Source: Pseudomonas alloputida
GTDB taxonomy: Bacteria > Pseudomonadota > Gammaproteobacteria > Pseudomonadales > Pseudomonadaceae
Direction of reading: 5' to 3'
Length of the DNA: 64,000 bases
Assembly: GCF_021283545.2 (NCBI RefSeq)
Contig: NZ_CP128540.1
Location: 1,895,501-1,959,500, forward strand
How positions within the stretch are numbered: position 1 is the stretch's first letter; every line of letters starts with the position of its first letter. The notes under the pieces are model-generated. The model saw only the letters and a program-made list of their open reading frames with translations, made no database searches and was not told the DNA's origin. The position numbers and the translations under genes were made by a program. This document shows positions 10,001 through 36,770 of the stretch, piece by piece.

Positions 10001-13000
10001 AGCGCGACCTGCGTATCGGCGCGCCGGTGGCCAACCGCATCCGCCCGGAAAGCGAAGGCCTGATCGGCGCTTTCCTCAACACCCAGGTGCTGCGCTGCGA
10101 GCTGGACGGCCAGATGACCGCCAGCGCGCTGCTGGAGCAGGTTCGCCAGGCTGCCATCGAAGGCCAGTCGCACCAGGACCTGCCGTTCGACCAACTGGTA
10201 GAGGCCCTGCAGCCCCCACGCAGCAGTGCCTACAACCCGCTGTTCCAGGTGATGTGCAACGTGCAGCGCTGGGCCTTCCAGCAAAGCCGCACGCTGGCCG
10301 GCATGCAGGTGGACTACCTGGTCAACGATGCCAGCGCCACCAAGTTCGACCTGTACCTGGAGGTGACCGACCTGGACGGCCGGCTGGGCTGCTGCCTGAC
10401 CTACAGTCGCGACCTGTTCGACGCGCCGCGCATCGCGCGCATGGCCGAGCACTGGCAACAACTGCTGGTCGGTTTGCTCGACAACCCGCAACACCGCCTG
10501 TGCGAACTGCCAATGCTGAGCAGTGCCGAGCAACAAGTGCTTACAGGCCAGTTGCAGGGCGAACACGATTTCGACCTTGGCCAGACCCTCCATGGTCTGT
10601 TCGCCGCCCAGGCCGCGCGCACGCCACAGGCTGGCGCGCTGACCTTCGCCGGCCAGCACTTGACCTACGCCGAGCTCGACCAGCAGGCCAACCGCCTGGC
10701 GCGTGCCCTGCGCGAACGGGGTGTCGGCCCGCAGGTGCGCGTGGGCCTGGCGCTGGAGCGCTCGCTGGAAATGGTCGTCGGCCTGCTGGCCATCCTCAAG
10801 GCCGGCGGCGCCTATGTACCGCTCGACCCCGAGTACCCGCTCGACCGCCTGCGCTACATGATCGAAGACAGCCGCATCGGCTTGCTGCTCAGCCAGCGTG
10901 CGCTGCTGCACACCCTGGGCGAGCTGCCTGAAGGCGTGGCCAGCTGGAGCCTGGAAGACGATGCCGCCAGCCTGGCGGCCTACAGCGATGCACCGCTGGA
11001 CAACCTCAGCCTGCCGCAGCACCAGGCTTACCTGATCTACACCTCAGGCTCCACCGGCAAACCCAAGGGCGTGGTGGTCAGCCATGGCGAGTTCGCCATG
11101 CACTGCCAGGCGGTGATCGCCGCATTCGGCATGCGCAGCGATGATTGCGAGCTGCATTTCTATTCGATCAATTTCGACGCTGCCAGCGAGCGCCTGTGGG
11201 TGCCGCTGTTGTGTGGTGCGCGCGTGGTACTGCGCGCCCAGGGTCAGTGGGGCGCCGAGGACATCTGCCAGTTGGTGCGCGAGCAGCAGGTGAGCATTCT
11301 GGGCTTCACCCCCAGCTACGGCAGCCAGCTGGCGCAGTATCTGGGCGGGCGGGGCGAACAATTGCCGGTACGCCTGGTGATTACCGGTGGCGAGGCGCTG
11401 ACCGGCGAGCACTTGCAGCGCATCCGCCAGGCCTTTGCGCCGCAGCAGTGCTTCAATGCCTACGGCCCGACCGAAACCGTGGTCATGCCGCTGGCGTGCC
11501 TGGCCCCAGAGGCCTTGCCAGCAGACCTTGGCAGCGTACCGATCGGCCGCGTCATCGGTAGCCGTACGGCCTACATCCTCGACGAGGATCTGGCCTTGTT
11601 GCCGCAAGGCGGTATTGGCGAACTGTACGTCGGCGGTGCCGGCCTGGCCCAGGGTTACCACGACCGGCCAGGCCTCACTGCCGAGCGCTTTGTCGCCGAC
11701 CCGTTCAGTGCCGAAGGCGGGCGCCTGTACCGTACCGGCGACCTGGTACGCCTGGGTACCGATGGCCTGGTGGAGTATGTCGGCCGTGCCGACCAGCAGG
11801 TGAAGATCCGCGGCTTCCGCATCGAACTGGGCGAAATCGAGAGCCGCCTGCTAGCGCACGAGGATGTCGACGAGGCCGTCGTGCTGGCGCTGGACTTGCC
11901 GGGCGGCAAGCAGCTGGTGGGCTATCTGGTGTGCAGGCAGGCCACCGCCGGTAACGACGTGCAACAACTGCTGCGCGAAGCGGTGAAAGCCGATGCCCGC
12001 CAGCACCTGCCCGACTACATGGTGCCTGCGCATCTGGTGCTGCTCGACAGCCTGCCGCTGATGGGCAACGGCAAGCTCGACCGCCATGCGCTGCCGCTGC
12101 CGGACCTTGAGCAGGCGCGGCAGCAATACCAGGCCCCTGGCAATGAGGTGGAAGCACAGCTGGCGCAGATCTGGCGCGATGTGCTCAACGTTGCCCGGGT
12201 CGGCGTGCAGGACAACTTCTTCGAGCTGGGGGGCGACTCGATCCTGTCGATTCAGGTGGTCAGCCGCGCCCGCCAGGCCGGCTTGCAATTCACCCCGCGC
12301 GACCTGTTCCAGCATCAGACCATCCAGACCCTGGCAACTGTGGTTCAGCTCAGCGAAGCCGCGAGCACGGTGGAGCAGGGTCTGCGCCAGGGCCAGGCCG
12401 GGTTGACGCCGATCCAGCACTGGTTCTTCGACAGTGACGTGCCACAGCCGCAACACTGGAACCAGACCGTGCTGCTGGAGGTGCGCCAACCCTTGGTTGA
12501 GGCCACCCTTGAACAGGCATTGGCTGCGCTGGTGCAACACCATGACAGCCTGCGCCTGCGCTTCAGCGACGCCCAGGGCCGCTGGCAGGCCCAGTACGTG
12601 CAGCCTGGCGCCGAGCAACTGCTGTGGAGCGCCACTGTCGCCGATTTCAATGATTGTCAGGCACTCTACACCGACGTGCAGCGCAGCCTGGACCTGCAAC
12701 AGGGGCCGCTGCTGCGCGCCTTGCTGGTGCGTGACGGGCAGGGCACCCAGCGGTTGCTGCTGGCGATTCATCACCTGGTTGTTGATGGCGTGTCCTGGCG
12801 GGTGCTGCTGGAAGACCTGCAGGCGCTGTACCGTGGCCAGCCTCTGCCGGCCAAGACCCACGCCGTCGGCGACTGGGCTGCGCGCCTGGCCAGCTACGCC
12901 GACAGCGATTCGCTGCGTGACGAACTGGCCTGGTGGCAAGGCCAGCTGGGCGGTGTGCGTCGCGAATTGCCGTGCGACCATCCGCAGGGCAGCAATTTGC

Positions 13001-16000
13001 ATCGCCACGCTCAAACCCTGGCCATCGGCCTGGACGTGGAGCAAACCCGGCAGCTGTTGCAACTGGCCCCGGCGGCTTACCACACCCAGGTCAACGACCT
13101 GCTGTTGACTGCTCTGGCGCGGGCCTTGTGCCGCTGGAGCGGCGATGAAGAAGTGCTGGTGCAGCTCGAAGGCCATGGCCGTGACGGGCTGTTCGAAGAC
13201 ATGGACCTGACCCGCAGCGTCGGCTGGTTCACCAATGCCTACCCACTGAGCCTGCGTCCGCTGCCAGGTGAAGACGACGCGGCGCGGGCCGGTTCGATCA
13301 AGCGCATCAAGGAACAACTGCGCCATGTACCGCACAAGGGCCTGGGCTACGGCGTACTGCGCTACCTGGCGGATGCCGCCGGGCGCGAGCAGATGGCGGC
13401 CTTGCCGCAGGCGCGCATCACCTTCAACTACCTGGGCCAGTTCGACCAGCAGTTCGACAGTGCGGCCTTGTTCCAGCCCCTGGAGGCCTCGGCCGGGTTG
13501 GCGCATGACCTCGATGCGCCGTTGCCCAACTGGTTGAGCGTCGATGGCCAGGTGTATGGCGGTGCTCTGCAACTGCGCTGGACCTTCAGCGCCGAGCGCT
13601 ACGACCAGCAGACCATCGCGCGTCTGGCTGAGGGCTATCGTCAGGAGCTGCTGGCGCTGGTCGCGCATTGCCTGGCCGATGGCAATGGCAGCTTCACCCC
13701 ATCGGACTTCCCGCTGGCGCACCTGACTCAGGAGCAGATCGACGCATTGCCGGTCCCGGCCGCGCAGATCGAGGACGTTTACCCGCTGACGCCGATGCAG
13801 GAAGGCATGCTGCTGCACACCCTGCTGGAGCCGGGCACTGGCCTGTACTACATGCAGGACCGCTACCGCATCAACAGCGCGCTCGACCCCGAGCGTTTCG
13901 CCCAGGCCTGGCAGGCCGTGGTGGCGCGCCACGAAGCGTTGCGCGCCTCGTTCAGCTGGAACAGCGGCGAGGCGATGCTGCAGATCATCCACAAGCCGGG
14001 CAACCTGGCGGTGGACTACCAGGACTGGCGCGGCCTGGCCGACGATGCCCAGGAGCAGCGCCTGCAGGCCCTGCACAAGCAGGAGCGCGAGGCCGGCTTT
14101 GCCTTGCTCAGCGAGGCACCGTTCCACCTGCGCCTGGTGCGCGTGGCCGAGGAACGCTACTGGTTCATGATGAGCAACCACCACATCCTTATCGATGCCT
14201 GGTGCCGCTCGCTGTTGATGAACGATTTCTTCGAGGTCTACCAGGCCCTTGGCGAAGGCCGTCAGGCCCAACTGCCGGTGCCACCGCGTTACCGCGATTA
14301 CATCGGTTGGCTGCAACGCCAGGGCCTGGACGACGCACGTGCCTGGTGGCAGGCCAACCTGGCCGGCTTCGAACGTGCCACAGCCATCCCGAGCGACCGC
14401 CCGCTGCGCCATGACCACGCCGGTAGCGGCATGGTCGTCGGCGATTGTTATACCCGCCTTGAGATGAATGATGGCGTGCGTCTGCGCGAACTGGCCCAGG
14501 CCCATCAGCTCACCGTCAACACTTTCGCCCAGGCGGCCTGGGCCCTGGTGCTGTCGCGCTACAGCGGCGACCGCGACGTGGCCTTTGGCGTAACCGTGGC
14601 CGGGCGCCCGGTGAGCATGCCGCAGATGCAGCGCACCGTCGGCCTGTTCATCAACAGCGTGGCCCTGCGTGTGCAGTTGCCTGCGGCGAGTGAGCGCTGC
14701 AGTGTGCGCCAGTGGCTGCAAGGCCTGCTGCAAAGCAACATGGAGCTGCGCGAGTACGAATACCTGCCGCTGGTGGCGATCCAGGCGTGCAGCGAGCTGC
14801 CCAAGGGCCAGCCGCTGTTCGACAGCCTGTTCGTGTTCGAGAATGCGCCGGTTGAAACCGCCGTGCTCAATCACGCCCAGCACCTGAACGCCAGCTCCGA
14901 CTCGGGCCGTACCCACACCAACTTCCCGCTGACGGCGGTGTGTTACCCGGGTGATGACCTGGGCCTGCACCTGTCGTTCGACCAGCGCTACTTCGACTAC
15001 CCGACCGTCGAGCGCCTGCTGGCCGAATTCAAGCGCCTGCTGCTGGCGCTGGTACAAGGTTTTGAAGGGGAGGTGAGCGAGCTACCGCTGCTGAGCGCCC
15101 AGGAGCAAGGCTTCCTGCTGGAGGACTGCAACCGGACCGAGCGGGTTTATCCGCTGGAGCAGAGCTACATCGCGCAGTTCGAAGCGCAGGTTGTGGCGCA
15201 TCCACAGCGTACCGTGGCCCGCTGCCTGGAGGCATCCTATGATTACGCCGGGCTGAACCTGGCGGCCAACCGCCTGGGCCATGCGCTGGTGGCTGCCGGC
15301 GTCTGCGTGGACCAGCCAGTGGCACTGCTTGCCGAGCGTGGGTTGCCGCTGCTGGGCATGATCGTCGGCAGCTTCAAGGCCGGCGCCGGCTACCTGCCGC
15401 TGGACCCGGGCCTGCCGGCGGCGCGCCTGCAAAGCATCATCCAGCTCAGCCGCACGCCAGTGCTGGTGTGCAGCGCGGCCTGCGCCGAGCAGGGGCGGCA
15501 GTTGCTCGGTGAGCTGGAGGCTTCGCTGCGGCCGCAACTGCTGGTCTGGGAAGACGTCCAGGCCAACCCGATCGCAAGCCACAACCCGGGCATCCACAGT
15601 GGCCCGGACAACCTCGCCTACGTGATCTACACCTCAGGCTCGACCGGCCTGCCGAAAGGGGTGATGGTCGAGCAGCGCGGCATGCTCAACAACCAGCTGA
15701 GCAAGGTGCCTTACCTGGCGCTCAGCGAGCAGGACGTGATTGCCCAGACCGCCTCGCAAAGCTTCGACATCTCGGTCTGGCAGTTCCTGGCTGCGCCGCT
15801 GTTCGGCGCCAAGGTAGAGATCGTGCCTAATGTCATCGCCCATGACCCGCAGGGCCTGCTGGCGCACGTGCAGGCCACCGGCATCACCGTGCTGGAGAGC
15901 GTGCCGTCCCTGATCCAGGGCATGCTGGCCAGCGACCACCAGGCCCTCGACGGCCTGCGCTGGATGCTGCCGACCGGCGAGGTCATGCCACCGGAGCTGG

Positions 16001-17007
16001 CGGCGCAGTGGCTGCAGCGCTACCCGCAGATCGGCCTGGTCAATGCCTATGGCCCGGCGGAGTGCTCGGATGACGTGGCGTTCTTCCGCGTCGATGCCGC
16101 CTCGACCCAAGGCAGCTACCTGCCAATCGGCACGCCAACCGATAACAACCGCCTGTACCTGTTCGGCGAGGACCAGGCGCTGGTGCCGCTGGGGGCGGTG
16201 GGCGAGTTGTGCGTGGCGGGTGCGGGTGTAGGCCGTGGCTACGTCGGTGACCCGGTGCGCACGGCACTGGCGTTCATTCCTCACCCTTACGGGGCACCGG
16301 GAGAGCGCCTGTACCGTACCGGTGACCTCGCACGGCAGCGCCTGGACGGTGTGCTGGAGTACGTCGGGCGCATCGACCATCAGGTGAAGATTCGCGGCTA
16401 TCGCATCGAGCTGGGCGAAATCGAGGCCCGGCTGCATGAGCAGGCGGAAATTCGCGATGCTGCTGTGGCGGTGCAGGAGGGAGTGAACGGCAAGCATCTG
16501 GTTGGCTACCTGGTGGCGCACCAGGGCGTCAGTGCCGATGCCGCGTTGCTGGAGCAGGTCAAGCAACGACTGCGTGCCGAGTTGCCGGAGTACATGGTGC
16601 CCTTGCACTGGGGCTGGTTCGACAGCTTGCCGCACAACGCCAACGGCAAGCTCGACCGCAAGGCCCTGCCAGCCATCGACATCGGCGGTCAGTACAGTCA
16701 GGCCTATCTGGCGCCACGCAACGAATTGGAGGACGTGTTGGCGGGTATTTGGGCCGATGTGCTCAAAGCCGAGCGGGTGGGAGTGCACGACAACTTCTTC
16801 GAGCTGGGCGGGCATTCATTGCTGGCCACGCAGATCGCTTCGCGGGTGCAGAAGCAGCTACAGCTGAACGTGCCGCTGCGGGCGATGTTCGAGTGCAGCA
16901 CGGTGGAGGCGTTGGCCGAGTATGTACAGGGGCTGCAGGGCAGTGCGCTGGATGATGACAAGGTCGACCGGCTCAGTGACCTGATGGCGGAACTGGAGGG
17001 GCTGTGA
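4054..17007 (+). CDS. pvdL: Pyoverdine chromophore NRPS PvdL
   Basis: The 4317-residue protein has the PvdL layout. An acyl-CoA ligase-like domain (about 1-560, TSGST loop near 175) is followed by an ACP (GGNS near 612). Module Glu has C (HHIVADG near 803), A (near 1274) and T (GGHS near 1655). Module Tyr has C (HHIVTEG near 1851), A (near 2329), T (GGDS near 2726) and E (HHLVVDG near 2906). Module Dab has a C domain of the type that follows E (HHILIDA near 3375), A (near 3859) and T (near 4251). There is no thioesterase, as expected for the first enzyme of the line. The last A domain code reads D-I-W-E-L-T-A-D-D, Dab-like; the first reads D-V-W-H-F-G-R-I-N, close to a Glu code. It would build the acylated L-Glu/D-Tyr/L-Dab chromophore precursor in the cytoplasm. 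The ATG at 4054 ([17 protein letters not shown]) is chosen by homology. Confidence 0.95.
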
Positions 17008-17013
17008 TGGGCA

Positions 17014-17033
17014 GGGGCGCTTGGCGCCCCTTT
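17014..17033 (+). terminator. Rho-independent terminator after pvdL
   Basis: The stem GGGGCGC-TTG-GCGCCCC is followed by TTT and begins 7 nt past the pvdL stop codon. Confidence 0.8.
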
Positions 17034-17143
17034 CATTGGTCGGGTTGCGCACACTGCGGCTGAGTCGTTCATCCGGATTTGCAGATCAATCAGGCAGTCG
17101 CTCGTTGCTGGCTATTTTCGTGAAGAGGCCCTCAAAGCTAGGG

Positions 17144-17980
17144 CTAATAATCGCCAAACGGTTCCCTTAGAACCCACTGGTCAACAATTGGCCGTCGTAC
17201 TCGAATATTAGTAAATGCATGTTCTTCAATTAAATAACTTTCCCTGGTTGCCTCATTTTTCCCATCCCATATTTTTTTGATCTTGCCCGCAGCCACAAGC
17301 ACATCGAAATCCTTGATGTACACACCAAATACACGAGCTTCACCTTTGTGAAGCTTGGCGGCTGCATTCGCATAGCGCTCGGCCACGCCATAGTTGCGTG
17401 TAAAATAAAACCCCTGCCCATGATCAACAATTTGATGTCGCTGGGGCTGAACGCCAGACTCTAAAGACCACGTAGAGCTCCTGATGCCACCATGATATCC
17501 TGCAAATACATAATCTGGCGGAAGATTGTTTGAGGTATGTGCAGGCGCGTGGACCGGTTCTAACATTGTCATCCGCACCTCGAGACGGTGATACTTACCT
17601 TCCCCTTTTAAGAGCGCCCCATGCCAATCTGGTATGGGGGCGCGACCTGAGAATGCCGAAGATAACCTTCGCCAAAAACGGAAATGCCCACTTGGATCCT
17701 GCCAGTTTATTGGGTCTCCCTGGCAATAACCATATGCATTCAGACCACCGCGCTTGAACGGGCTGAAACTGTCAGGCGAGTTGAAACGCATGAGCCCAGG
17801 GCTAAATGCCCGTAAACCGTTACCCAGCAAAAAATTACCAGTCATCGGGTCCGGTCGCTCACCGTTAAAACCCAGCAGGCCCGATGAGTTCGGGTGATAC
17901 CCATAAGGTGAGTAAATGGATGTGTTAGCGGCCGACATTTCGCTCGCCTCATCAATAGGATTCATGTAAGTAGGCACCAT
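17144..17980 (-). CDS. Short Rhs-core protein with ADP-ribosyltransferase-like C-terminus
   Basis: The protein has 278 residues from the ATG at 17980. An alternative start at residue 15 (17938) has a better ribosome site (GAGG). Residues about 24-97 are an Rhs-repeat-associated core (YSPYGYH, LLGFNGERPDPMTGNFLLGNG, RFNSPDSFSPFKRGGLNAYGYCQGDPINWQDPSG). The C-terminal half after the DPSG boundary is variable in this family. Here it shows FAGYHGG, GQGFYFT and AERYANAA, the spacing expected of an ART/PARP-like fold. No N-terminal Rhs shell repeats, secretion domain or cognate immunity gene is visible. Short single-core Rhs proteins of this kind are common in P. putida, so it may be a complete member of that class rather than a fragment. 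Toxic activity is inferred. Confidence 0.7.
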   Translation of the reverse strand: MVPTYMNPIDEASEMSAANTSIYSPYGYHPNSSGLLGFNGERPDPMTGNFLLGNGLRAFSPGLMRFNSPDSFSPFKRGGLNAYGYCQGDPINWQDPSGHFRFWRRLSSAFSGRAPIPDWHGALLKGEGKYHRLEVRMTMLEPVHAPAHTSNNLPPDYVFAGYHGGIRSSTWSLESGVQPQRHQIVDHGQGFYFTRNYGVAERYANAAAKLHKGEARVFGVYIKDFDVLVAAGKIKKIWDGKNEATRESYLIEEHAFTNIRVRRPIVDQWVLREPFGDY

Positions 17981-18166
17981 GATGTTTTTCTCGGCGTGGC
18001 TTTGCGGTCGACTTTGACAGTGTTCGTTAAAATGCGCTACTGATAAAAATAACAGGTTGTGTGGAAGGGGGCTGAAGCGGCCCTGTGTTTCTGGCTGACT
18101 TCACTTCCGTCGCGGTTTTAATCTGGGTGCTTTGCTGAATCCAGGATTTAATTTTTAGGATTTCCC

Positions 18167-18868
18167 CTAGGTCGATGCATTAATAAAGGCTTCATCCAGC
18201 GATTTGGCGTGGTGGCGTTCCATGAACTGTCCACCACTGTCAAACGCTTCCAGTCGCTTGTTTGCGAGCATATAAAATCGCTGGCAGTTTTTCGTGATTT
18301 CCTCTGTGTAATGAGAAGCTATCAGCACGCTCGCACCTTCCGCGCACGCGCTTTTTATACCGAGCCATATATAATGTCGAAATTCAGGGTCTACGCCAGC
18401 CGTTGGCTCATCAAGAATGATCAAGTCACTGTTTAAAAGCAACAAGGTCAGCGTGAAGTAGCTGCGAATTTCACCGTAGCTGCAATTGGCGGCTTTTTTC
18501 TTGGCGATTTCTGCATATCGCCTGGACAGTGACGGGGACCATTTGGCTAGTTTCGAGAGAATCTCTGTGTGATCTGGGGAAGCGTTGGGGGTTAGGCTGG
18601 TGATAAGCTTGCCCGCTTCGTTCATACGCAGTAACGGGGGCGGTGTAAGGATTTGGGTCAAATAGGCCTGACGCCTGGATAAATTGGAAATGGCACCTTT
18701 TGCCGGTTTTTTTATTTTGCAGATGAGGTCGAAAAGGGTTGTCTTTCCGGCCCCGTTGTTGCCCAGAATGCCGACCAGTTCCCCCGCTTTTATAGTGAGT
18801 TCAATGTCGTTCAGCAGCGGGTTTCCGCTGTATCCGAAGTGAAGGTTGTTTATAGTTAAAATGTCCAT
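18167..18868 (-). CDS. mcbF: ABC transporter ATPase, McbF-like (microcin export/self-protection)
   Basis: The 233-residue protein has Walker A GNNGAGKT (36-43), Walker B LIILDEP (149-155) and an H-loop His in IASHYTEE (186). The signature is CSYGE (129-133) rather than LSGGQ. The ATG at 18868 overlaps the permease stop by one base (TGATG), with GGAG upstream, so the two are translationally coupled. Position and size (McbF of E. coli is 247 aa) fit McbF, which with McbE exports microcin B17 and gives partial immunity. The frame is open far upstream but that part lies inside the permease gene. The following 186 nt to the Rhs gene hold no gene that I can see. Confidence 0.85.
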   Translation of the reverse strand: MDILTINNLHFGYSGNPLLNDIELTIKAGELVGILGNNGAGKTTLFDLICKIKKPAKGAISNLSRRQAYLTQILTPPPLLRMNEAGKLITSLTPNASPDHTEILSKLAKWSPSLSRRYAEIAKKKAANCSYGEIRSYFTLTLLLLNSDLIILDEPTAGVDPEFRHYIWLGIKSACAEGASVLIASHYTEEITKNCQRFYMLANKRLEAFDSGGQFMERHHAKSLDEAFINAST

Positions 18869-19611
18869 CAGTATCGGCTCCATATGGGTTGGATTCTGAA
18901 ATACCTTCCGGTCAGGTATGTCGAGGCTGCAGAGGCCGAAAGTGCAATCAGGAAACTGTTGAGAAGGGGCATTTCGCCATGGAAGATCTGCGCGCTTAGA
19001 AAGAGCGGGTTGATCAGCGTTAGCGCATGCGAAGCATCGTGCCCCAGCGTGGCGCCGGTGTATCCGGAGACCAGCATGAGAAATGACATGAGTGAGAAAA
19101 GTGTGCTGGCTGTGCTGAATTTTATCGGCAGCGCGGCGATTCCCAGGCCGATACAGGTGAACATGAGGTAGCTGGTGTAAAAGCATGCCATCAGATAGAG
19201 ATATTCAGGAAGTGAGTAGTGACCTCGTAAGGGTTTGGTCAAGAGGTAGAATAGTGTGGCGTAAAGCGAGCTCAATAAAAAATAACTGAGTGTGTGGGCA
19301 GTCAGGAATAGCTTGATTGCGCTGTGTTGGTAGATGAAGGACCGCGTGAAGCCACTTTCCCTCCTGCCGATGAGGTAGAAGCTGAATCCAAAGAACGCGA
19401 GGGTGGCAGAGATGTATGAGTAGAACCAGGCGGCTGAAGCGGTATAGGTCGAGGCTGCATGCGTTGGCTGGGTGATGATGAAGAGTATGCAAGGGGCCAG
19501 CGCTGACCAAAGAAGCGATGTGGGCTCCCTCAAGTGCTCAGTGGTCAAGATTTTTGTGATTGTCGTGATTTTTTTTGCGCTGCGTATAAAGTGGTTTGAA
19601 GTTAAATTCAT
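18868..19611 (-). CDS. mcbE: ABC-2-type permease, McbE-like
   Basis: The 247-residue membrane protein shows about six hydrophobic segments, for example SLLWSALAPCILFIIT near the N-terminus, YSYISATLAFFGFSFYLIG, SYFLLSSLYATLFYLL and STLFSLMSFLMLVSGYTGATLG. The length matches McbE (241 aa). Its ATG overlaps the end of mcbD by four bases (ATGA), and its stop overlaps mcbF. With the McbF-like ATPase it should form the exporter that carries the azole-modified peptide across the inner membrane. Primary sequence alone would only say ABC-2 permease; the McbE call comes from context. Confidence 0.82.
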   Translation of the reverse strand: MNLTSNHFIRSAKKITTITKILTTEHLREPTSLLWSALAPCILFIITQPTHAASTYTASAAWFYSYISATLAFFGFSFYLIGRRESGFTRSFIYQHSAIKLFLTAHTLSYFLLSSLYATLFYLLTKPLRGHYSLPEYLYLMACFYTSYLMFTCIGLGIAALPIKFSTASTLFSLMSFLMLVSGYTGATLGHDASHALTLINPLFLSAQIFHGEMPLLNSFLIALSASAASTYLTGRYFRIQPIWSRY

Positions 19612-20810
19612 GGGAATGGGACCATTTTGGAATTCTGGCTGCTGATGATTTCGTTGTAGAAAGGTGCGGAATAAGTGTTTTCGAGGTTGAAGTGTCTTGC
19701 GTTGTTCATGTGGAGAAAAAGATTGGGAGAGAAATATTTGCAGAGGTAAAGATTTGACTGTTTGTAAGGGGTGGAGGAGAGGTATAAGTACCCATTAAGT
19801 TGTAGCGCTCTTAGAGTCTTTAATAAATTTTGAATTGTTAGCTTTTTCGATAATGTAAGCTCATGGTTGTGTTGGGTGAATTTGACTTCGCTGGATATTT
19901 CTTTGAAAGTTTCATAGCTGTTGCAACTCAGGAAGTGCTTGAGGTAGGGGTCTTGGAGGGGGTTTTTTAGTTCGTGTTCGCTGTCGACTGATTGCATGAA
20001 TCTCAATGTTTGCCATAATTCAACTATCGACTTTTCTAATGCAATTCTTGAAGTGGCGGCATAAGCCATTCCTGCACAATATTTGACTTTGGCGTTAATG
20101 TCTTGACTGCCGTAGCATAAAAGGATGCAACTTCCTGGGAAACGTTGATCGGTGAGATTAAGGATGCAAAGTTCGCCAGATTTTTTCAGTTCTTGGAAAA
20201 GTGCTAGGCTTGCGCTCGCTGTCAGTGTAAGGCAGGCATCATCGAATTCAATTTCTGCAGTACAGGTTTTTGTAAGCCAGAATCGAAGTAGGAACTGTCG
20301 TTCCAAATTTTCTCTGATTGCGCCTAGTACTGCATTGTTGATCGTAATGTGTGCGCTGCAACCGCATGTGTCTCTAATAGGATAAAAACCGTTGTCGGTT
20401 GAGTTTTTACACTCTGAAATGGAAAGGCAGGCGGTGGGTACCTTGCAAGATGTGAAATCTGTGACTCTGTATACAGTGGTTCGGTCAAAGCAGTGTGATT
20501 GCAATGATGATTTCTCGCTTGAAATTAAAGTTTGAGAAAATGCCTTGGTGAATGCTTGGCACTCTTCAGTGGTCAGCCCGTCACCTAGTCTGCACGTGTC
20601 ATGCACAGGGATGTCCAAGTAGAAATGCTTGCGTTCAAAATGTTCGCCTAGGGCGCTGTCAGTTATGTCTGACGACCAGCCGCTACTCGAACCATAGGTG
20701 CGCCAGCGGCTGCCGCACTCAACGCTGTGTGGTAAATGATTTACTGCGCTGGGTCTAAGTAGCAAAAAGTCCGTAAATGTCGGGTGATGTATCTCGTTAT
20801 AAAAATTCAT
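19608..20810 (-). CDS. mcbD: YcaO-family cyclodehydratase, McbD-like
   Basis: The protein has 400 residues (McbD of E. coli is 396). YcaO features are SSGWSSDITDSALGEHFER (first nucleotide-binding segment, E56 and E59), CGCSAHITINNAVLGAIRE at 149-167 with ENLERQ, and a C-terminal PFP, the short Pro-rich tail typical of azoline-forming YcaO proteins. YcaO enzymes use ATP to phosphorylate the amide carbonyl and drive cyclisation of Cys/Ser/Thr to azolines. It should work in a complex with the McbB-like and McbC-like proteins on the precursor at 22528-22737. Its start is 4 nt after the mcbC stop. Codon use is markedly AT-richer than the NRPS genes, suggesting transfer. Confidence 0.88.
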   Translation of the reverse strand: MNFYNEIHHPTFTDFLLLRPSAVNHLPHSVECGSRWRTYGSSSGWSSDITDSALGEHFERKHFYLDIPVHDTCRLGDGLTTEECQAFTKAFSQTLISSEKSSLQSHCFDRTTVYRVTDFTSCKVPTACLSISECKNSTDNGFYPIRDTCGCSAHITINNAVLGAIRENLERQFLLRFWLTKTCTAEIEFDDACLTLTASASLALFQELKKSGELCILNLTDQRFPGSCILLCYGSQDINAKVKYCAGMAYAATSRIALEKSIVELWQTLRFMQSVDSEHELKNPLQDPYLKHFLSCNSYETFKEISSEVKFTQHNHELTLSKKLTIQNLLKTLRALQLNGYLYLSSTPYKQSNLYLCKYFSPNLFLHMNNARHFNLENTYSAPFYNEIISSQNSKMVPFP

Positions 20811-20814
20811 GAGC

Positions 20815-21606
20815 TCAACCTATTAACTGGATGCACACGGGTAAGAATAGAGACGGGTTAAGGTTCAAGTTTTTTGTTACTTGGTGGTCGGTATAGCCTG
20901 ACCAGGGTCTGCTGTTTAGTTGGAGTTCTTTGCATCGTAAATCGGTAATCATGTACATCGAGCCGGCCTCCATCAGGCTCAAGCGGTAGCCTCGATATCG
21001 ATATTTGAACAGTGCTTTGGGTAAGTATATTGAATATATAAGGGCCAGGGACGGTGAGCCTATATCAATACTTTCTGGAATGATTGCCTCGGTCAGCTGG
21101 TGGATGTCAATTGATGGGGTGTGAGCCTCCAGTGATCTCGATGATGGAAGTAAGTGCAGTGCGTCACTTTCAGTTGGCCATTGCTCAATCTTGTTGTTGA
21201 GATTGATGCAAAATACTTCTATTGGATAAAGTGCTCCGCCGCTTGGGTAGCCTCTTTTGTAGGTGGTAGGGCTTTTAGTTAAGAGCGGTGCAAGCAATGC
21301 TTGGACTATATCAAAGTGAAGAGGGCGTGCTTCAAATCGTTCGCATGAACTATTTCTTCGTAGCGGGTGTGGGCTCGCCAGAGGTGTAAGAGTCGGTTCT
21401 TTGTTTTTGCTTGGGGCTACAATGGTATTGAGTTTTAGTTCGTTTCCGGTAAGTTTTTCGAGGTCTTTTGGTGGTATTTGGTGCAGGGCGCTCAAGTGTT
21501 GAGTTGCTTTGTGTATCGTATAGTTGCCTTTGGCATGGAAAGCCAATGTCTCATCCATGACCTCAGGCGATAGAAATTTTAAGTACTCATCATGGCTTAT
21601 GTTCAT
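20815..21606 (-). CDS. mcbC: SagB/McbC-type FMN-dependent azoline oxidase
   Basis: The protein has 263 residues (McbC of E. coli is 272). Hallmarks of the SagB/McbC nitroreductase-like family are RRNSSCERF (83-91), YPSGGALYPIEV (120-131), KYRYRGYRLSLMEAGSM at about 201-217, and a C-terminal SLFLPVCIQLIG. It should oxidise azolines to thiazoles and oxazoles with FMN. The ATG overlaps the mcbB stop by one base (TAATG). It belongs to an AT-rich, translationally coupled operon. Confidence 0.9.
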   Translation of the reverse strand: MNISHDEYLKFLSPEVMDETLAFHAKGNYTIHKATQHLSALHQIPPKDLEKLTGNELKLNTIVAPSKNKEPTLTPLASPHPLRRNSSCERFEARPLHFDIVQALLAPLLTKSPTTYKRGYPSGGALYPIEVFCINLNNKIEQWPTESDALHLLPSSRSLEAHTPSIDIHQLTEAIIPESIDIGSPSLALIYSIYLPKALFKYRYRGYRLSLMEAGSMYMITDLRCKELQLNSRPWSGYTDHQVTKNLNLNPSLFLPVCIQLIG

Positions 21607-22469
21607 TATTTAACTCCTCTGCATTGACACAATGGCCAGTGGACGCTGGGGTCCTCGGTGGTGACTCCAGTCTCCAGGTTGATTGTTCTGGATAATAGAA
21701 CTTGATCTTGAGTGGTTTTCGATTTTGGGGCTTTAGTGAGTTTGCTTATAAATGAAACAATGGTGCCTATAATCAAGGATTTTTGGAGCTCATCAACGTG
21801 TATCTTGGGTAAATCCAGTTTGCTGCTGCAGCAAAAAGACCAGATTTTGCACCAGTGGTGCTGGCTTGCTCTCAGCTTTTCGTAGTGAGTAATGCGGTCA
21901 AGTGTGCAAAATGCACACGGGTTTCCAATCGCGGGGATATGCATTTCCGTTAAGTGGAAGTGATTGCCACTGATAAAGCCAACGGTGGCTCCGCAGTGAG
22001 GGTTCGATACCAATAGATTTAAATAATTGGCTTTTAGTGAGTGCGGGCTAAGTTTAGTGCAGGCGAATACGAATAGCGTTGGCTTACGGGTCGTATGGGG
22101 TGTATATTCTGAATATTGCCTTATTTCTAAAGATCCGCTGTGTTTGCTTTCTAGAAGATTCTTTGTTTCGTCTGAAATTTCTAAGTCGTGGTAGATGAGG
22201 GTGTGCTGGAAGAACGGTGGGTCAGTGGGTTCTCCTATAATGGATAGACTTTTTAAGAAGTTCATAGCGCTGGAAGGCTGAAGATGAACTTTTCGTAGAA
22301 TTTTTTCAAGCGCGTGGTGCTGAATATATTTGGATTGACTCTCCTCAATAAGTTGTAATGCCCTTATTATTTTAGGTTCGGTGATCCTGGTGAAGCCGCT
22401 GGATGAAAAAACCATAGGATCACTGTCGAAATTCAGTATTTCGTAGTTGTAAACTCTGAGTGTTTTCAT
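21606..22469 (-). CDS. mcbB: McbB-like E1/precursor-recognition protein of the azole synthetase
   Basis: The protein has 287 residues (McbB of E. coli is 295). The N-terminal 100 residues look like the winged-helix leader-binding (RRE-type) region, including RALQLIEESQSKYIQHHALEKIL. The C-terminal part holds a likely zinc site from PCAFC (C185, C188) and LCQC near the C-terminus (C281, C283). The spacing resembles McbB and other E1-like partner proteins of YcaO enzymes. It would bind the leader of the precursor and activate the YcaO subunit. Its ribosome site (GAGGTG) sits in a small hairpin. Annotation as McbB rests mainly on size, cysteines and position directly after the precursor gene. 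Confidence 0.82.
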   Translation of the reverse strand: MKTLRVYNYEILNFDSDPMVFSSSGFTRITEPKIIRALQLIEESQSKYIQHHALEKILRKVHLQPSSAMNFLKSLSIIGEPTDPPFFQHTLIYHDLEISDETKNLLESKHSGSLEIRQYSEYTPHTTRKPTLFVFACTKLSPHSLKANYLNLLVSNPHCGATVGFISGNHFHLTEMHIPAIGNPCAFCTLDRITHYEKLRASQHHWCKIWSFCCSSKLDLPKIHVDELQKSLIIGTIVSFISKLTKAPKSKTTQDQVLLSRTINLETGVTTEDPSVHWPLCQCRGVK

Positions 22470-22472
22470 TTG

Positions 22473-22489
22473 GCACCTCGAAAAGGTGC
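22473..22489 (-). promoter_or_regulatory. Hairpin sequestering the mcbB ribosome-binding site
   Basis: GCACCT and AGGTGC pair across a TTTCG loop on the minus strand, burying the GAGGTG that lies 5 nt before the mcbB ATG. It may keep translation of the enzymes below that of the precursor. Confidence 0.45.
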
Positions 22490-22526
22490 GGGCGCCCGCG
22501 CAAGAACTCGTGTGCGCCCGCTTTTT
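22488..22526 (-). terminator. GC-rich hairpin between mcbA and mcbB (possible partial terminator)
   Basis: GCGGGCGC and GCGCCCGC (22488-22495 and 22514-22521) can pair across 18 nt. The run of five T follows the stem on the plus strand, so classic termination would be of plus-strand transcripts. In the mcb direction it lies right after the precursor stop and could attenuate readthrough or protect the mcbA message 3' end. Confidence 0.4.
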
Positions 22527-22527
22527 G

Positions 22528-22737
22528 TTACAGGGTTACCGGGTCGTTGTTAATGCCGTTATTTCCACCACTGCCGCCAGAGCCGCCGCTGCCTCCCTTG
22601 CAGCCACCTCCGCCTCCGCAACCACCACTACCACCACAACCACCGGCGCTGCCAGACCCTCCGAAGAACTCCGCTTCCATATCGCAATGTGTATCGGAAG
22701 CCAATTCCATGACGCTAATACCATATTGATTTTCCAT
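22528..22737 (-). CDS. mcbA: Microcin B17-like precursor peptide (linear azole-containing peptide)
   Basis: The product is a 69-residue peptide, the same length as E. coli McbA. The ATG at 22737 has a strong AAGGAGA site 6 nt upstream; an upstream ATG at 22770 lacks one. Leader (about 1-25): MENQYGISVMELASDTHCDM then EAEFF. YGISV is comparable to the FGVVL segment of the McbA leader that binds the synthetase. Core (about 26-58): Gly-rich, with C34, C40, C46 and S28, S30, S37, S50, S53, S56, mostly separated by two glycines; the tail is NNGINNDPVTL. These Cys and Ser are candidate thiazoles and oxazoles. There is also a leader Cys (C18). It is the first gene of a six-gene mcb-type operon. The bioactive product and target are unknown. 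Confidence 0.88.
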   Translation of the reverse strand: MENQYGISVMELASDTHCDMEAEFFGGSGSAGGCGGSGGCGGGGGCKGGSGGSGGSGGNNGINNDPVTL

Positions 22738-23160
22738 AGGTGTCTCCTTGTTTTTGTTGTGGCCCGACATGTGCGGGCATCAGGAGGTTTAGGCGTTAGA
22801 TTCTTCAACGTCAATCTTTCGGTGGAGGGTAAGTGGCTTGGAATGGTATTGGAGTTTTTGGTTTAAAGCCGTTTTCGTGGGAAAGTTCTTCAGAAGGGTC
22901 TTACTTTGATCTGATAATGGTTTTTAGTTTTCAGTGCTTCTTATATTTATGTAAGAAGCTTCTGATTCTGGCGTGCGAAAGCTCTGTGGTGAGCGTGTGA
23001 GTGTTCTTTGTTATGCGCGGTGTGAAGTTTTAATAAGGGGCGCGAGCATGCTGATGTTTGACATCAGCATGCTCCGAAGAATTGTTTCTAGATATTTTGA
23101 GTTGCAGGGTTAGACCTGCGTGGGGATAGATTTGCCGGGTCGTGAGATTGATTTCGGGAG
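22738..23160. other. Non-coding region upstream of the mcb operon with two palindromes
   Basis: No credible gene is seen in these 423 nt. The AT-rich part nearer the operon should hold its promoter. A perfect 13-bp inverted repeat with a 5-nt loop lies at 23044-23074 (GAGCATGCTGATG and its complement), and an 8-bp one at 22936-22959 (GCTTCTTA/TAAGAAGC). Neither is followed by a clear T-run in the operon direction. They may be operators or the terminator of something lost. Confidence 0.5.
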
Positions 23161-23223
23161 ATTTACTGCTTGCGAAAGAACGGCCTGCGTCCAATCACCA
23201 ATGTGTCTCCACCCCCGATCAGC

Positions 23224-23414
23224 GTAGGAGCGGGTTTACCCGCGAATACAGTGGCGGCGGCAACGGTGAACGGCTGGTGGAAATTGGCCAGCAGGTCCGG
23301 CCCTTTCGCGGGTAAACCCGCTCCTACGGCCGACCGCGCAGGCCTTGCGATCACGGGCCTGGCGCAAAACCCAGCCGTTAGCGCGAGCCCCGTAGGAGCG
23401 GGTTCACCCGCGAA
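23224..23414. repeat. Cluster of three REP elements
   Basis: REP cores lie at 23224-23246 (forward), 23305-23327 (reverse) and 23392-23414 (forward, one base changed: GGTTCACCC). They fill the gap between the mcb upstream region and dsbG and mark the return to host-like sequence. Confidence 0.88.
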
Positions 23415-23485
23415 CACCGGCGTAGCCGGTGCCATGCCCCACGTCGCCTGCTTCACGGCGCTCGATCTGTGCCCCACCACATGCA

Positions 23486-24244
23486 CTAGCGCTTGCCCAG
23501 AATCTTCCCAAGCATCTCCGGCCGTGGTGCCCCTTGCTGGCTTTGCAGGTTGCCTTGCTCATCCTGATAGAAAATGGCCGGAGTCGCCTGCAACCCCATC
23601 TCTTCCATCAACGCCATGTTCGCCGCCAGCTTCTGTTGCACAGCCTCTGGCACCTGCTCGAGTGCCTTCAGCGTGCTGGCCTTGCCGGCCTTTTCATGCT
23701 GCTGCAGGGCCTTGACCGGGTCTTTCGCCGCCAGCAGCGCCGCCGACTTGCCCGGGCTGTCCTCGCGGATGATGCCGACCATGATATGGCGCAACTGCAC
23801 CTTGCCCGACTCCACCCAGGGCCGCGCCTGTTCCCAGAACATGTTGCAGTACGGGCAGTTCGGGTCGCTGAACAGGTACACCTTGCGCGGCGCATCGGCC
23901 TTGCCGTCGGCGATCCACGCGGTTTTTTCCATTTTCGCCCAGATTTCCTTGCTCATCGGCGCGTATACCAGCTTTTGCAGCGGCTCGGCGCTCAGGTCCT
24001 TGCCCTGTTCGTCGAACAGGCTGCCGACCAGCACGTGCTTGCCGTCGGGGGTCAGGTACAGGGCCAGGGCGTTGTTCTGGTACTCGGCGGCATAACCGCG
24101 CAGGCCGTTGGGCGCATCGAAGCTGCCCTTGATCACGGCGCCCTTGGCTTGCAGCTGCTGAACCGCCTTGGGCAGTTCTTCGGCTTGCAGGGCAGGGGTG
24201 GCCAGCAGGGTCAGGGACAGGGGCAGCAGTGCAGTCAATCGCAT
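23486..24244 (-). CDS. dsbG: Periplasmic disulfide isomerase/chaperone DsbG
   Basis: The 252-residue protein has a signal peptide cleaved near LQA-EEL (residue 21), an N-terminal DsbC/G dimerisation domain (about 22-85), and a thioredoxin domain with active site CPYC (130-133) and a cis-Pro loop in LQATPAIFY. The family keeps cysteines reduced or isomerises disulfides in the periplasm. The ATG at 24244 is chosen for the signal peptide; the open frame upstream overlaps the TlpA-like gene. It is the last gene of a dsbD-tlpA-dsbG operon, one base after its neighbour. Confidence 0.92.
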   Translation of the reverse strand: MRLTALLPLSLTLLATPALQAEELPKAVQQLQAKGAVIKGSFDAPNGLRGYAAEYQNNALALYLTPDGKHVLVGSLFDEQGKDLSAEPLQKLVYAPMSKEIWAKMEKTAWIADGKADAPRKVYLFSDPNCPYCNMFWEQARPWVESGKVQLRHIMVGIIREDSPGKSAALLAAKDPVKALQQHEKAGKASTLKALEQVPEAVQQKLAANMALMEEMGLQATPAIFYQDEQGNLQSQQGAPRPEMLGKILGKR

Positions 24245-24245
24245 G

Positions 24246-25082
24246 TCAGTTTCCTTGTGCGGCAGGGGCGGGCGCAATGGCCCGGTCGAAAGGTTCCAGG
24301 GCGTGGCGCAGGCTGGCCCGGGACAGTTCGCCCAGGTGGCTGCCAACCAGCCGCCCGTTGGCGTCGTAGAACAGGGTGGTGGGCAAGGCCATGGAGCCGA
24401 CGCGCTGGGCCAGCAGGCCGGTGCCGTCGAACAGCACGTGGGTCAGGCTCAGGCCGGTGGTGGCGAGGAAGGTGCTGACGTTTTCCGGGGTCTCGCCCTG
24501 GTTCACGAACAGGAAGGTCACGTGCGGGTAATCGCTTTGTGCCTGTTGCAGCACTGGCATCTCACGCCGACACGGTGGGCACCAGGTGGCCCAGATGTTG
24601 ATGACCAGCGGCTTGCCGCGGTAGCTGTGCAATGCCACGGCCTGGCCGCCGGCGTTGTTCAGGCTCAGTTCGGGCAGCTCGGTGCCTTTGCTGTACAGGT
24701 GGCCGCCGAGGCTGGCCAGGCCCCAGAACAGTGCCCCGCTGAACAGCGCCCAGCCTAGCGGGCGGCGCAGGCCGGGGTGGCGCCAGCCCTGCCAGAGGGC
24801 TCCGAGCACGATGCCGGCAAGGCCCGACCAGAACAGGAAGCCGCCGTCACGGATGTCGATGATTTGCAGCGGGTCGTCCTGATACATCGGCCAGTAGGCC
24901 AGCACGAAGCCGGCGCGGGCACACAGCAGGCCGATCAGGAACAGGTTGAACAGCGCCGATTCCGGGCTCTCGCCGCCACGTCGGGCGACCCACCAGCCGA
25001 CCACGCTGGCGATCACCAGGGCGGTGAGCATCAGCAGATGGTTGAGGGCCATGGTCAGTGGCCCGAGTGTTACGGTCAGCAT
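24246..25082 (-). CDS. Membrane-anchored TlpA-like thioredoxin with Lgt-like N-terminal domain
   Basis: The protein has 278 residues. The N-terminal 125 residues contain about four membrane segments; the stretch CARAGFVLAYWPMYQ...IIDIRDGGFLFWSG resembles the prolipoprotein diacylglyceryl transferase (Lgt) fold but is too short for a working Lgt. The C-terminal periplasmic thioredoxin domain has WCPPC (167-171) and the TlpA-like GKPLVINIWATW run. It should receive electrons from the DsbD homologue encoded just upstream. The ATG overlaps the dsbD stop by one base (TGATG). The gene makes a tightly coupled operon with dsbD and dsbG. Confidence 0.88.
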   Translation of the reverse strand: MLTVTLGPLTMALNHLLMLTALVIASVVGWWVARRGGESPESALFNLFLIGLLCARAGFVLAYWPMYQDDPLQIIDIRDGGFLFWSGLAGIVLGALWQGWRHPGLRRPLGWALFSGALFWGLASLGGHLYSKGTELPELSLNNAGGQAVALHSYRGKPLVINIWATWCPPCRREMPVLQQAQSDYPHVTFLFVNQGETPENVSTFLATTGLSLTHVLFDGTGLLAQRVGSMALPTTLFYDANGRLVGSHLGELSRASLRHALEPFDRAIAPAPAAQGN

Positions 25083-27103: not shown

Positions 27104-28465
27104 GAGGGTGTCAGAAATTTTGTGTTCGGGCATAACATGAGTAAGAGGTGCATGTATGCCAACCAAAAAGAAACCCTTGCGTGACCTGCCCAAAATCCCC
27201 AAAGAGCTGCTGGAGCAGTTCGGTGAGGGCCTGATGACCGCAGAGGCTATCGAGGATGCCTCTGCGGCGTTCAAGAAGGCCTTGATCGAACGCGCTCTGC
27301 ACGCCGAACTTGGCCACCACCTGGGTTATCCGCCGGGCGCGCAGCGCCCAGAGGATGAAACCAACCAGCGTAACGGCAAGAGTGGCAAGACGGTTTTGAC
27401 CGGCGATGGCCCGCTGCGGCTGGAAATTCCTCGTGACCGAGACGGCAGTTTTGCGCCCATTCTCATCCCCAAGCATGAGCGGCGGTACACCGGTTTCGAT
27501 GACAAGATCATCGCCATGTACGCCCGTGGCATGACGGTCAGAGAGATCCGAGCCTTTCTGTCCGAGCAGTATGGAACAGAGGTCTCACCCGACTTCATCA
27601 GCTCTGTGACAGACGAGGTCATGGAAGAAATTGGCGCGTGGCAGCAGCGGCCACTAGAGCCCATGTACCCGGTCATTTTCTTCGATGCACTGCGGGTGAA
27701 GATCCGCGAAGAAGGCTTGGTGCGCAACAAGGCCATTTACTTGGCGCTGGGCGTTCTACCCGACGGGACGCGCGATATCTTGGGCATCTGGATCGAGAAC
27801 ACCGAGGGTGCGAAGTTCTGGATGAAGGTCTTTAACGATCTCAAGACACGTGGTGTCGAGGATGTGCTGATTGCCGTGACCGATGGCCTCAAAGGCATGC
27901 CAGAGGCTCTCAGCGCCGTGTTTCCAGAGACGACTCTGCAGACGTGCATCGTGCACCTGATCCGCAACAGCCTGGACTTTGCAGCCTGGGACAAGCGGCG
28001 GGCACTGGCCAAGGCGCTCAAGCCGATCTACCAGGCCATCAACGCCGAAGCGGCTGAGCAGGCACTCGATGAGTTTGAAAACGGGCCCTGGGGCAAGCAG
28101 TATCCAACGGTCGTTGCGGCCTGGAGACGCGCCTGGGATCGAGTGATTCCCTTCTTTGTCTTCCCACCAGCCATCCGGAAAGTGATCTACACCACCAACG
28201 CCATCGAGAGTATCAATGCCCAGCTGCGCAAGATCATCAAGACCCGAGGCCATTTCCCGAACGATGACGCAGCTACCAAGCTGATCTGGCTGGGGCTGCG
28301 AAACATCACGGCAAACTGGGGCTCAGCGGCGCATGATTGGAAAAGTGCGATGAATCAATTCGCGATTTTGTACGGAGATCGGTTCATCAGGCCGACCTGG
28401 TGAAAGTCAGGGCCTGCCTGACGGCAGGCCGTTACCGGCCCGCACACAAAAAATCTGACACTTCC
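27104..28465 (+). mobile_element. IS256-family insertion sequence, complete
   Basis: The element is 1362 bp. The terminal inverted repeats are about 22 bp: left 27104-27125 and right 28444-28465 share GTGTCAGA and TTTTGTGT, with five mismatches overall. The 8-bp direct repeat CCAGTCCC flanks it at 27096-27103 and 28466-28473, as expected of a target duplication for this family. It carries one intact transposase gene, so it may be active. The exact TSD suggests a fairly recent insertion. Confidence 0.9.
27156..28403 (+). CDS. IS256-family transposase (mutator type, DDE)
   Basis: The 415-residue protein begins MPTKKKPLRDLPKIPKELL. The catalytic triad is visible: D in FFDALRVKIREE (about residue 175), D in VTDGLKGMPEA (about 242) and E in TTNAIESINAQLRK (about 350). 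Family features include GLMTAEAIEDASAAFKKALIERALHAELGHHLGY near the start and TCIVHLIRNSL after the second Asp. The frame is intact and of normal length. It fills most of the element at 27104-28465. Confidence 0.95.
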   Translation: MPTKKKPLRDLPKIPKELLEQFGEGLMTAEAIEDASAAFKKALIERALHAELGHHLGYPPGAQRPEDETNQRNGKSGKTVLTGDGPLRLEIPRDRDGSFAPILIPKHERRYTGFDDKIIAMYARGMTVREIRAFLSEQYGTEVSPDFISSVTDEVMEEIGAWQQRPLEPMYPVIFFDALRVKIREEGLVRNKAIYLALGVLPDGTRDILGIWIENTEGAKFWMKVFNDLKTRGVEDVLIAVTDGLKGMPEALSAVFPETTLQTCIVHLIRNSLDFAAWDKRRALAKALKPIYQAINAEAAEQALDEFENGPWGKQYPTVVAAWRRAWDRVIPFFVFPPAIRKVIYTTNAIESINAQLRKIIKTRGHFPNDDAATKLIWLGLRNITANWGSAAHDWKSAMNQFAILYGDRFIRPTW

Positions 28466-35026: not shown

Positions 35027-35653
35027 CTATTCATCTTCTTCGCCAGTGAGTTCATAGGGTTCGAGTTCGCTCAGTTGGGAAAGCAGCACCAGATGCTCCA
35101 CTGCCTTCAGCTTTTCAAGACGCTCAAGGCTGTCTGGGCCTCCCAGCATCAAGGCGGGGACAAAGCCATACATTTCGTCTGAGCCCAGGGTGCCGAGCCG
35201 TTCCCTGGCAGGTTCGAACAGGTCGTCGAAGTAGACGCACTCGGTCATCAGCCACATGAGCAAACCGTGGATCTTGTTGTCCCGTTCTTCGTCGCCTGAG
35301 CTGTGAGCGCCATCGAGGTAACGGGAATGGTAGGCCGCGATGGTCAGCACCGAACCGGTTTTCTCACCCCATAGGTACAGGTCGCCAAAAGCGCTGCGGG
35401 CGATGAGGTGATAAGTGTCGCATGCTTCGAAGTGCGTACCTGCCAACCAAGAGGCCACTACACCCTGGTATTCCTGAGGATTTACCAGCCAGAACAAGCC
35501 GCCGCCGTAGCCGCACCAGCCGTGGTCTTGCCAGTATTCAAGGAGGCGATTGGGGAGTTTGCCTTGGTAATGATCGACAGCCGCAGGGGGTACGGGTTGC
35601 TGGCCGATGGGGTCGCCGAAGGTTTCCAGGAAAATGCTGAAGATGACATCCAT
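35027..35653 (-). CDS. GAD-like/DUF1851 protein, Tdi1-like T6SS immunity (copy 1)
   Basis: The protein has 208 residues. The N-terminal GAD-like domain has PPAAVDHYQGKLPNRLLEYWQDHGW, and the C-terminal DUF1851 region runs from SDEMYGFVPALMLGG to AVEHLVLLSQLSELEPYEL. This is the domain pair of Tdi1, the immunity protein of the T6SS DNase Tde1. It is the most diverged and most GC-rich of the three tandem paralogues here. It is cytoplasmic, with no signal peptide or membrane segment. A solitary immunity function without its own toxin is inferred. Confidence 0.8.
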   Translation of the reverse strand: MDVIFSIFLETFGDPIGQQPVPPAAVDHYQGKLPNRLLEYWQDHGWCGYGGGLFWLVNPQEYQGVVASWLAGTHFEACDTYHLIARSAFGDLYLWGEKTGSVLTIAAYHSRYLDGAHSSGDEERDNKIHGLLMWLMTECVYFDDLFEPARERLGTLGSDEMYGFVPALMLGGPDSLERLEKLKAVEHLVLLSQLSELEPYELTGEEDE

Positions 35654-35675
35654 TCGTTTAGGTCCTTTTGTGTGC

Positions 35676-36293
35676 TCAGAAGTCAGAGAAGCTGTAGGGT
35701 TCGAGTTCGGTGATTTGAGACAGCAAAATCAAATGCTCTATTGCTTTAAGTTTTTCTAGGTTTTTGAGGTCGGGGCGCCCTCCCAGCATCAATGCAGGAA
35801 CAAAGGCATACATCTCATCTTCTTTCAAAATGCCCAGCTTTTTCTTCGCGGGCTCAAAAAAGTTTTCAAAATCGTTGTGTTCTTTTTTTCTTGATAGAAA
35901 GAAGCTTTGGACCTCTCTGGTTGCTTCGGTTTCAGTGAGTGTGCAGTTTTCACCTGTGTAACGGGACAGAAGACTTGTGATTTTTACTGAAAAGCCACTG
36001 TTCTCTCCCCAAAGATACAGGTCGCCGAAAGCGCTTCTGGCAATCAAGTGGTAAGTGTCCCGGTTTTCAAGGAGGGTGCCCTCGGTCCAGGATGAGACAA
36101 CGCCCTCATACTCCTGTGGATTAACCAGCCAGAATATACCTTCGCCAAAACCACACCATCCATGCTCTTTCCAGTATGCAAGTAACAACTCTGGAAGTTT
36201 TCCGTTATAGCGATCAATACTGGAGGGGGGCACCTCTCGACGCGAAAAAGGCGCGCCTATATTGTCAAGGAATATGGAGAATACCTCATCCAT
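35676..36293 (-). CDS. GAD-like/DUF1851 protein, Tdi1-like immunity (copy 2)
   Basis: The protein has 205 residues and shares almost every conserved block with its neighbours: PPSSIDRYNGKLPELLLAYW, FWLVNPQEYEGVVSS, FGDLYLWGENSGF, DEMYAFVPALMLGG and the ending ELEPYSFSDF. It is clearly AT-richer than copy 1, so it may have come in from elsewhere rather than by simple local duplication. It sits 22 nt upstream of copy 1 on the same strand. A frameshifted piece of the sensor kinase gene lies just before it. Confidence 0.8.
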   Translation of the reverse strand: MDEVFSIFLDNIGAPFSRREVPPSSIDRYNGKLPELLLAYWKEHGWCGFGEGIFWLVNPQEYEGVVSSWTEGTLLENRDTYHLIARSAFGDLYLWGENSGFSVKITSLLSRYTGENCTLTETEATREVQSFFLSRKKEHNDFENFFEPAKKKLGILKEDEMYAFVPALMLGGRPDLKNLEKLKAIEHLILLSQITELEPYSFSDF

Positions 36294-36717: not shown

Positions 36718-36770
36718 CCGGGACGAAGCCGTGCATCTCATCCGCCGCTTTTTCCCGGCCAATACTGTGT

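Follow-up and report, generated by a model that had tools for sequence, protein, structure and literature searches.

We describe here an operon of six minus-strand genes, running from 22737 down to 18167 in a window of 64,000 nucleotides of the Pseudomonas alloputida chromosome (contig NZ_CP128540.1, positions 1,895,501 to 1,959,500), that follows pMccB17, the microcin B17 (MccB17) plasmid, in the order mcbA to mcbF and in the lengths of its genes. Its genes probably serve to produce and export a linear antibacterial peptide with azoles, to which McbEF would give immunity, and the loci of related species that hold only mcbEF would have arisen through loss of mcbABCD. In the scheme we propose, McbB would bind the leader and work with McbD, a YcaO protein, which would turn core cysteines and some serines into azolines; McbC would oxidise these to azoles, and a chromosomal TldD/TldE protease would cut off the leader. 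McbEF would then export the product and, without an McbG-type protein, serve as producer immunity. Relatives meeting the peptide would have lost mcbABCD many times while keeping mcbEF; the resulting alleles would confer immunity only and often occupy the same chromosomal position. The genes are as follows.

22528..22737, minus strand: mcbA-like precursor gene, 69 aa; QYG motif in the leader, core GGSGSAGGCGGSGGCGGGGGCKGGSGGSGGSGG rich in Gly, Ser and Cys, tail NNGINNDPVTL
21606..22469, minus strand: McbB-like protein, 287 aa
20815..21606, minus strand: McbC-like azoline oxidase, 263 aa
19608..20810, minus strand: McbD-like YcaO cyclodehydratase, 400 aa, with C-terminal VPFP
18868..19611, minus strand: McbE-like ABC permease, putative export and immunity, 247 aa
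18167..18868, minus strand: McbF-like ABC ATPase, putative export and immunity, 233 aa

Identity to the proteins of pMccB17 (NZ_ON989342.1) in two-sequence BLAST is 19% for B, 33% for C, 30% for D, 27% for E and 33% for F (E ≤ 4e-14). B matches the McbB family TIGR04424 (6.5e-45, 154 bits, cut-off 65) and McbB in PDB (7.6e-11), and its cysteines 185, 188, 281 and 283, which presumably bind zinc, are invariant in an alignment of eight sequences including E. coli McbB. C matches McbC in PDB (6.3e-38), stays under the cut-off of TIGR03605 (2.3e-15, 56.5 bits, cut-off 78.4) and keeps K201 and Y202, which we take to be catalytic, invariant in an alignment of six. Both exporter subunits are homologous to their namesakes: over 233 aligned columns E and the McbE of pMccB17 are 26.6% identical (3.5e-27), E matching no Pfam or NCBIfam model and having no significant relative among solved structures, and F matches Pfam ABC_tran (1.2e-18) and is 33.2% identical to McbF. 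D matches Pfam YcaO (4.1e-16) and McbD in PDB (6.2e-54), and its C-terminal VPFP is that of McbD; the C-terminal PxP of azoline-forming YcaO proteins is catalytic (PMC7136475). The operon has the features of a thiazole/oxazole-modified microcin cluster, namely a YcaO cyclodehydratase with a partner protein, a SagB/McbC-type oxidase and an adjacent precursor with Cys and Ser in its core, and the genome also has three TldD-family frames, two of them separated by about 2 kb, and one SbmA/BacA-family frame. A preliminary description of this DNA had read the operon in the same way, and its order, lengths (here compared with pMccB17) and enzyme assignments all stand, as do the overlaps it had noted, TAATG between B and C, ATGA at D/E and TGATG at E/F; the two matches on which it had made the assignment depend, YcaO for 19608-20810 and McbB for 21606-22469, are those just given. 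Spacers of 4 nt and 58 nt separate C from D and A from B, and AAGGAG lies directly 5' of the mcbA ATG.

The distribution of these genes bears on immunity. Among 398 Pseudomonas genomes, one per species and drawn evenly from a larger group, TIGR04424 matches in 30 and exceeds its cut-off in 27. McbE is present in 57: 26 with McbB over the cut-off, two with McbB remnants (G023 and G175) and 29 with no McbB match, in every one of which mcbF adjoins mcbE. That makes 31 genomes with E and no intact McbB, about as many as bear McbB, while 26 of the 27 McbB genomes have E and the remaining one, G318, has an mcbF end on another contig. E without McbB is common and McbB without E nearly absent. As we see it, a producer could not drop its immunity, whereas an exposed non-producer would gain by keeping it. 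This asymmetry is what an antibacterial peptide with immunity through McbEF predicts, and in many related species the two retained pump genes probably protect against the peptide. Purifying selection on EF is indicated by its ratios of nonsynonymous to synonymous change (dN/dS): unsaturated EF-only pairs (5 of 8) give 0.07-0.17, mixed pairs (8 of 8) 0.07-0.15 and complete pairs (6 of 7) 0.09-0.13. Both reading frames remain open in 28 of the 31 EF loci, the exceptions being L070, L084 and L102.

Traces of a former operon are found at most of these loci. The nearest relative, G081, has lost mcbABCD: its sequence follows ours down to 22743, 6 nt before the mcbA ATG, continues with 9 nt and resumes from 19615, 4 nt before mcbE, so that the upstream region of mcbA now stands before mcbE. 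In 9 of 30 EF loci the 120 nt ahead of mcbE contain a tail of McbD (versus 22 of 6200 random stretches; L080, whose mcbD is intact, is left out of this count and is labelled EF in the tree below), both flanks match a complete-operon locus in 20 of 30 (L102 left out), and G091 still has an intact mcbD. Altogether 24 of the 31 are tied to a complete operon by both flanks, the McbD tail or intact mcbD. One site, between dsbG and a nonribosomal peptide synthetase (NRPS) gene that we take to be pvdL, holds the complete operon in our genome, G289, G276, G163, L004, L005 and L008, an EF-only locus in G081, G077, G057 and G117, and the end of C with D, E and F in G091. In a tree of E and F from 30 complete and 28 EF-only pairs (58 in all; L084, L102 and L070 are left out since E or F is broken or truncated, and L045, whose contig ends after mcbB, is absent from the E and F sets), the label requires 19 changes, at least 13 of them forced by the starred branches, and clusters no more than it does after shuffling (mean 19.5). 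Scars and common chromosomal places favour loss of ABCD over its gain. Three pairs of records, L002/L063, L006/L065 and L003/L066, are duplicates. At 6650-8638 of L072 (G023) a precursor-like gene, an McbB N-terminus, mcbE and mcbF stand together with no C or D, which resembles a stage of decay.

Several observations weigh against this account. Three of the 31 loci (L078, L081 and L093) have neither scar nor common flank, L077, L086 and L090 match a complete locus on one flank only, and in four of the 20 with both flanks (L094, L096, L099 and L100) one of the matches is shorter than 700 bp; the change count in the tree, moreover, does not distinguish gain from loss. EF is not always retained either: in G022 McbB survives as a remnant and McbE is missing, and at L009-L012 an N-terminal part of McbB is present but nothing matches C-F. 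Damage occurs also in loci labelled complete: a stop in mcbB (G021), D only partly matched (G052 and G037) and E in two pieces (G245). Finally, McbG acts alongside EF in E. coli (PMC10912980), so protection by EF alone may be incomplete. As to L009-L012, they may have lost EF as well or may be small separate genes; L013, with an McbB N-terminus only, runs to a contig end, and its match is too short to judge.

The loci without any sign of a former operon, 3 of 31, are also what could be expected if McbEF were kept for some other export job, and McbF is of a common ABC ATPase type. We consider this improbable, given the 24 of 31 loci that are linked to a complete operon and given two MccB17-resistant E. 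coli with mcbG and an mcbF orthologue in the absence of biosynthesis genes (PMC10926693). With that report orphan immunity is already known as an idea, and the likeness lies in immunity genes standing without production genes; the E. coli case lies beside a transposase and was read as transfer, whereas the Pseudomonas loci have EF without G and often occupy the place of a complete operon. For EF-only loci in Pseudomonas we found no account in the open-licence literature. The survey of PMC7136475 starts from YcaO genes, and such a survey cannot see EF-only loci; the reach of the peptide may therefore exceed what cluster counts suggest. In 5426 E. coli genomes EF of pMccB17 was found in 135 and BCD in 110 (110 and 101 at 80% coverage), separate counts from which no EF-only number follows. 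In a sample of the order, TIGR04424 was matched by our genome only (1 of 293), the sample having few other Pseudomonas genomes.

The peptide itself is strongly conserved. The precursor matches 49 library proteins at E ≤ 0.001, its own entry included, and on this count chance resemblance was rejected. A precursor is present in all 33 loci examined (two pairs being duplicates), and by reading of the precursor list 31 of them have the core G(G/A)SG(G/S)(A/Q)GGCGGSG(G/D)CGGGGGC(S/N/K)GGSGG, the exceptions being L045 of G318, which is of B17 type, and a variant in L069 (G051). A stricter pattern is matched in 23 of 30 loci, leaving seven outside, with 23 DNA sequences that encode nine peptides; among these 23, pairwise identity of the core is 0.35 at third codon positions versus 0.96 at first and second. 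Third positions have diverged and the others are nearly invariant, so the peptide is under strong selection, and so constant a core points to a conserved target. The residue after the third Cys in the 49 library precursors is S in 23, N in 16 and K in 8, with two unclassified; of the three only S could yield a fused thiazole-oxazole. Our core, Gly-rich and nearly uncharged, has K there and contains no SC and no CS, so both fused bis-azole sites of E. coli McbA, GSC and GCS, are absent from it. As judged from its residues, the product could have at most three thiazoles (Cys34, Cys40 and Cys46) and six oxazoles (Ser28, 30, 37, 50, 53 and 56).

No gene for a pentapeptide-repeat protein (PRP), the type to which McbG belongs, adjoins the operon. 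The PRP of G318 (168 aa, adjoining an mcbF end), taken as query, has no match at E 0.01 in 61 loci, and in a pattern scan of 65 loci nothing reaches this control (0.268, 9 pentads), the best other score being 0.243 with 5 pentads for a 103-aa frame in L064. In G318 one contig end (L045) holds a B17-type precursor with mcbB and another (L133) the mcbF end and PRP; the two are probably parts of one B17-type operon divided over contigs. The only B17-type core that we met thus accompanies a PRP. With no adjacent mcbG and no fused bis-azole site, our operon is not that of microcin B17 proper; what the preliminary description called microcin B17-like is so in that wider sense. It fits the mcbG-less group of mcb-like operons in Pseudomonas, A to F without an adjacent PRP gene.

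Since the peptide is distinct and strongly constrained, its target or binding mode probably differs from that of microcin B17. That it is nevertheless a gyrase poison of the same kind, with McbEF as sufficient immunity, appears rather unlikely to us. The six genes are those of mcbA-F, P. syringae mcb-like products are stated to target gyrase (PMC7136475), and in 23 of the 49 library precursors the third Cys is followed by a Ser, so that a Cys-Ser bis-azole could form there. Also, an MccB17 fragment minus one bis-heterocycle and the polyglycine retains cleavage activity (PMC3622597), so a core that lacks just the GSC site could still act on gyrase. Against this, neither the 61 loci queried with the G318 protein nor the 65 scanned by pattern yielded a PRP, the one B17-type core occurs in a genome where a PRP gene adjoins an mcbF end, our core is without CS or SC, and MccB17 suffers when its heterocycle residues are changed (PMC3622597). 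Action on the ribosome, as for klebsazolicin and phazolicin, is doubtful. Clusters of these two comprise the same protein set, likewise without mcbG, and the ribosome was suggested as a possibility, without proof, in PMC7136475; yet the same source describes positive charges as important to phazolicin, and our core has hardly any.

Group 2 of PMC7136475 and the clusters of PMC8719888 and PMC4603692 are the closest known systems, being of the same genus with A to F and no pentapeptide-repeat gene. Most pseudomonad mcb-like clusters are described as lacking mcbG, with precursors unlike those of mcbG-bearing clusters and a target probably other than gyrase (PMC7136475); all strains with an mcb-like cluster in PMC8719888 have it without mcbG, and P. 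putida and P. fluorescens are among the hosts of MccB17-type clusters (PMC4603692). The class is therefore already in print, and of the earlier suggestion that the operon may be undescribed only this member and its exact core can still qualify. With mcbABCDEFG of pMccB17 it shares the A-F order, lengths, conserved residues and a Gly-rich core with Cys and Ser; it differs in the 19-33% identity of B-F, the lack of mcbG and of a GSC/GCS site, and its chromosomal location. The microcin B-like clusters of P. syringae (Metelev et al. 2013, known to us via citing papers) are mcb-like operons of the same genus that carry mcbG homologues (PMC8719888), which ours does not; G318 looks like this type.

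Taken across Pseudomonas, the data allow a wider reading, possible though falling a little short of probable, in which this is a contested toxin-immunity locus with a non-gyrase peptide, McbEF as its sole immunity and recurrent in-place loss of mcbABCD. If so, EF-only loci would record which species encounter the peptide in nature, and mcbG-less peptides could be studied in natural pairs of producers and non-producers, the latter presumably immune, whose loci often coincide in chromosomal position.

The operon is AT-rich, with a GC content of 45-49% over 18 to 23 kb versus about 65% in the surrounding NRPS genes, and G045 and G025 lack the operon at this site, with dsbG and pvdL about 140 bp apart. 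Both facts would suit a foreign island acquired recently, and acquisition had been proposed before. The difference in composition holds, and an empty site exists, but all 29 operons measured are AT-rich (GC 0.39-0.50, mean 0.44; flanks 0.63), and at the dsbG-pvdL site the distance between EF pumps tracks that between flanks (12 loci, Mantel r 0.68, 0 of 9999 permutations). AT-richness is therefore no sign of recent acquisition; we reject that origin as improbable.

The position was earlier given as inside a pyoverdine locus, which is loose. The operon has the 3' end of the pvdL-like gene (3970-17007; a 4345-aa NRPS with a PRK05691 match along its full length, 8717.8 bits) on one side and dsbG (23486-24346; 375.7 bits, cut-off 124) on its upstream side. 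Nor is this setting peculiar to our genome, since relatives such as P. hunanensis (L002) and P. guariconensis (L006) have it in common. Three further features belong to the site.

22738..23152, minus strand: upstream region of mcbA; 22743-23152 is 81% identical in G081 (L074), there directly 5' of mcbE
22488..22521, minus strand: hairpin between mcbA and mcbB, from folding against shuffled sequences
17008..23485, no strand: insert between pvdL and dsbG, comprising the operon and an Rhs tip

A hairpin folds at the mcbA/mcbB gap in all five loci tried, ours and four relatives (z -1.7 to -5.2), ours being the weakest (9 of 200 shuffles fold equally well); it may set the levels of precursor and enzymes. 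Promoter-like sites are not above shuffles (6 versus 7.0), terminator-like sites number 11 versus 7.3 in shuffles (sd 2.5), and an Rfam search gave no match.

The first gene past mcbF is a short Rhs-core gene (17144-17980; TIGR03696, 4.6e-19) whose C-terminal ADP-ribosyltransferase-like matches are weak and all under cut-off. Among the loci of the dsbG/pvdL comparison this tip has an E 1e-10 match solely in G091, at a different position, and a piece 60% identical over 82 aa is present in L080. At 23216-23417 a palindromic repeat similar to repetitive extragenic palindromes occurs three times in alternating orientation, with similar stretches in the empty site of G025. Farther away, a Mutator-family transposase (27156-28403; PF00872) adjoins a dsbD-type gene, and three tandem GAD-like/Tdi1-type immunity genes of type VI secretion (35027-37694; PF08887 and PF08906) stand in DNA of reduced GC content (52-57%).

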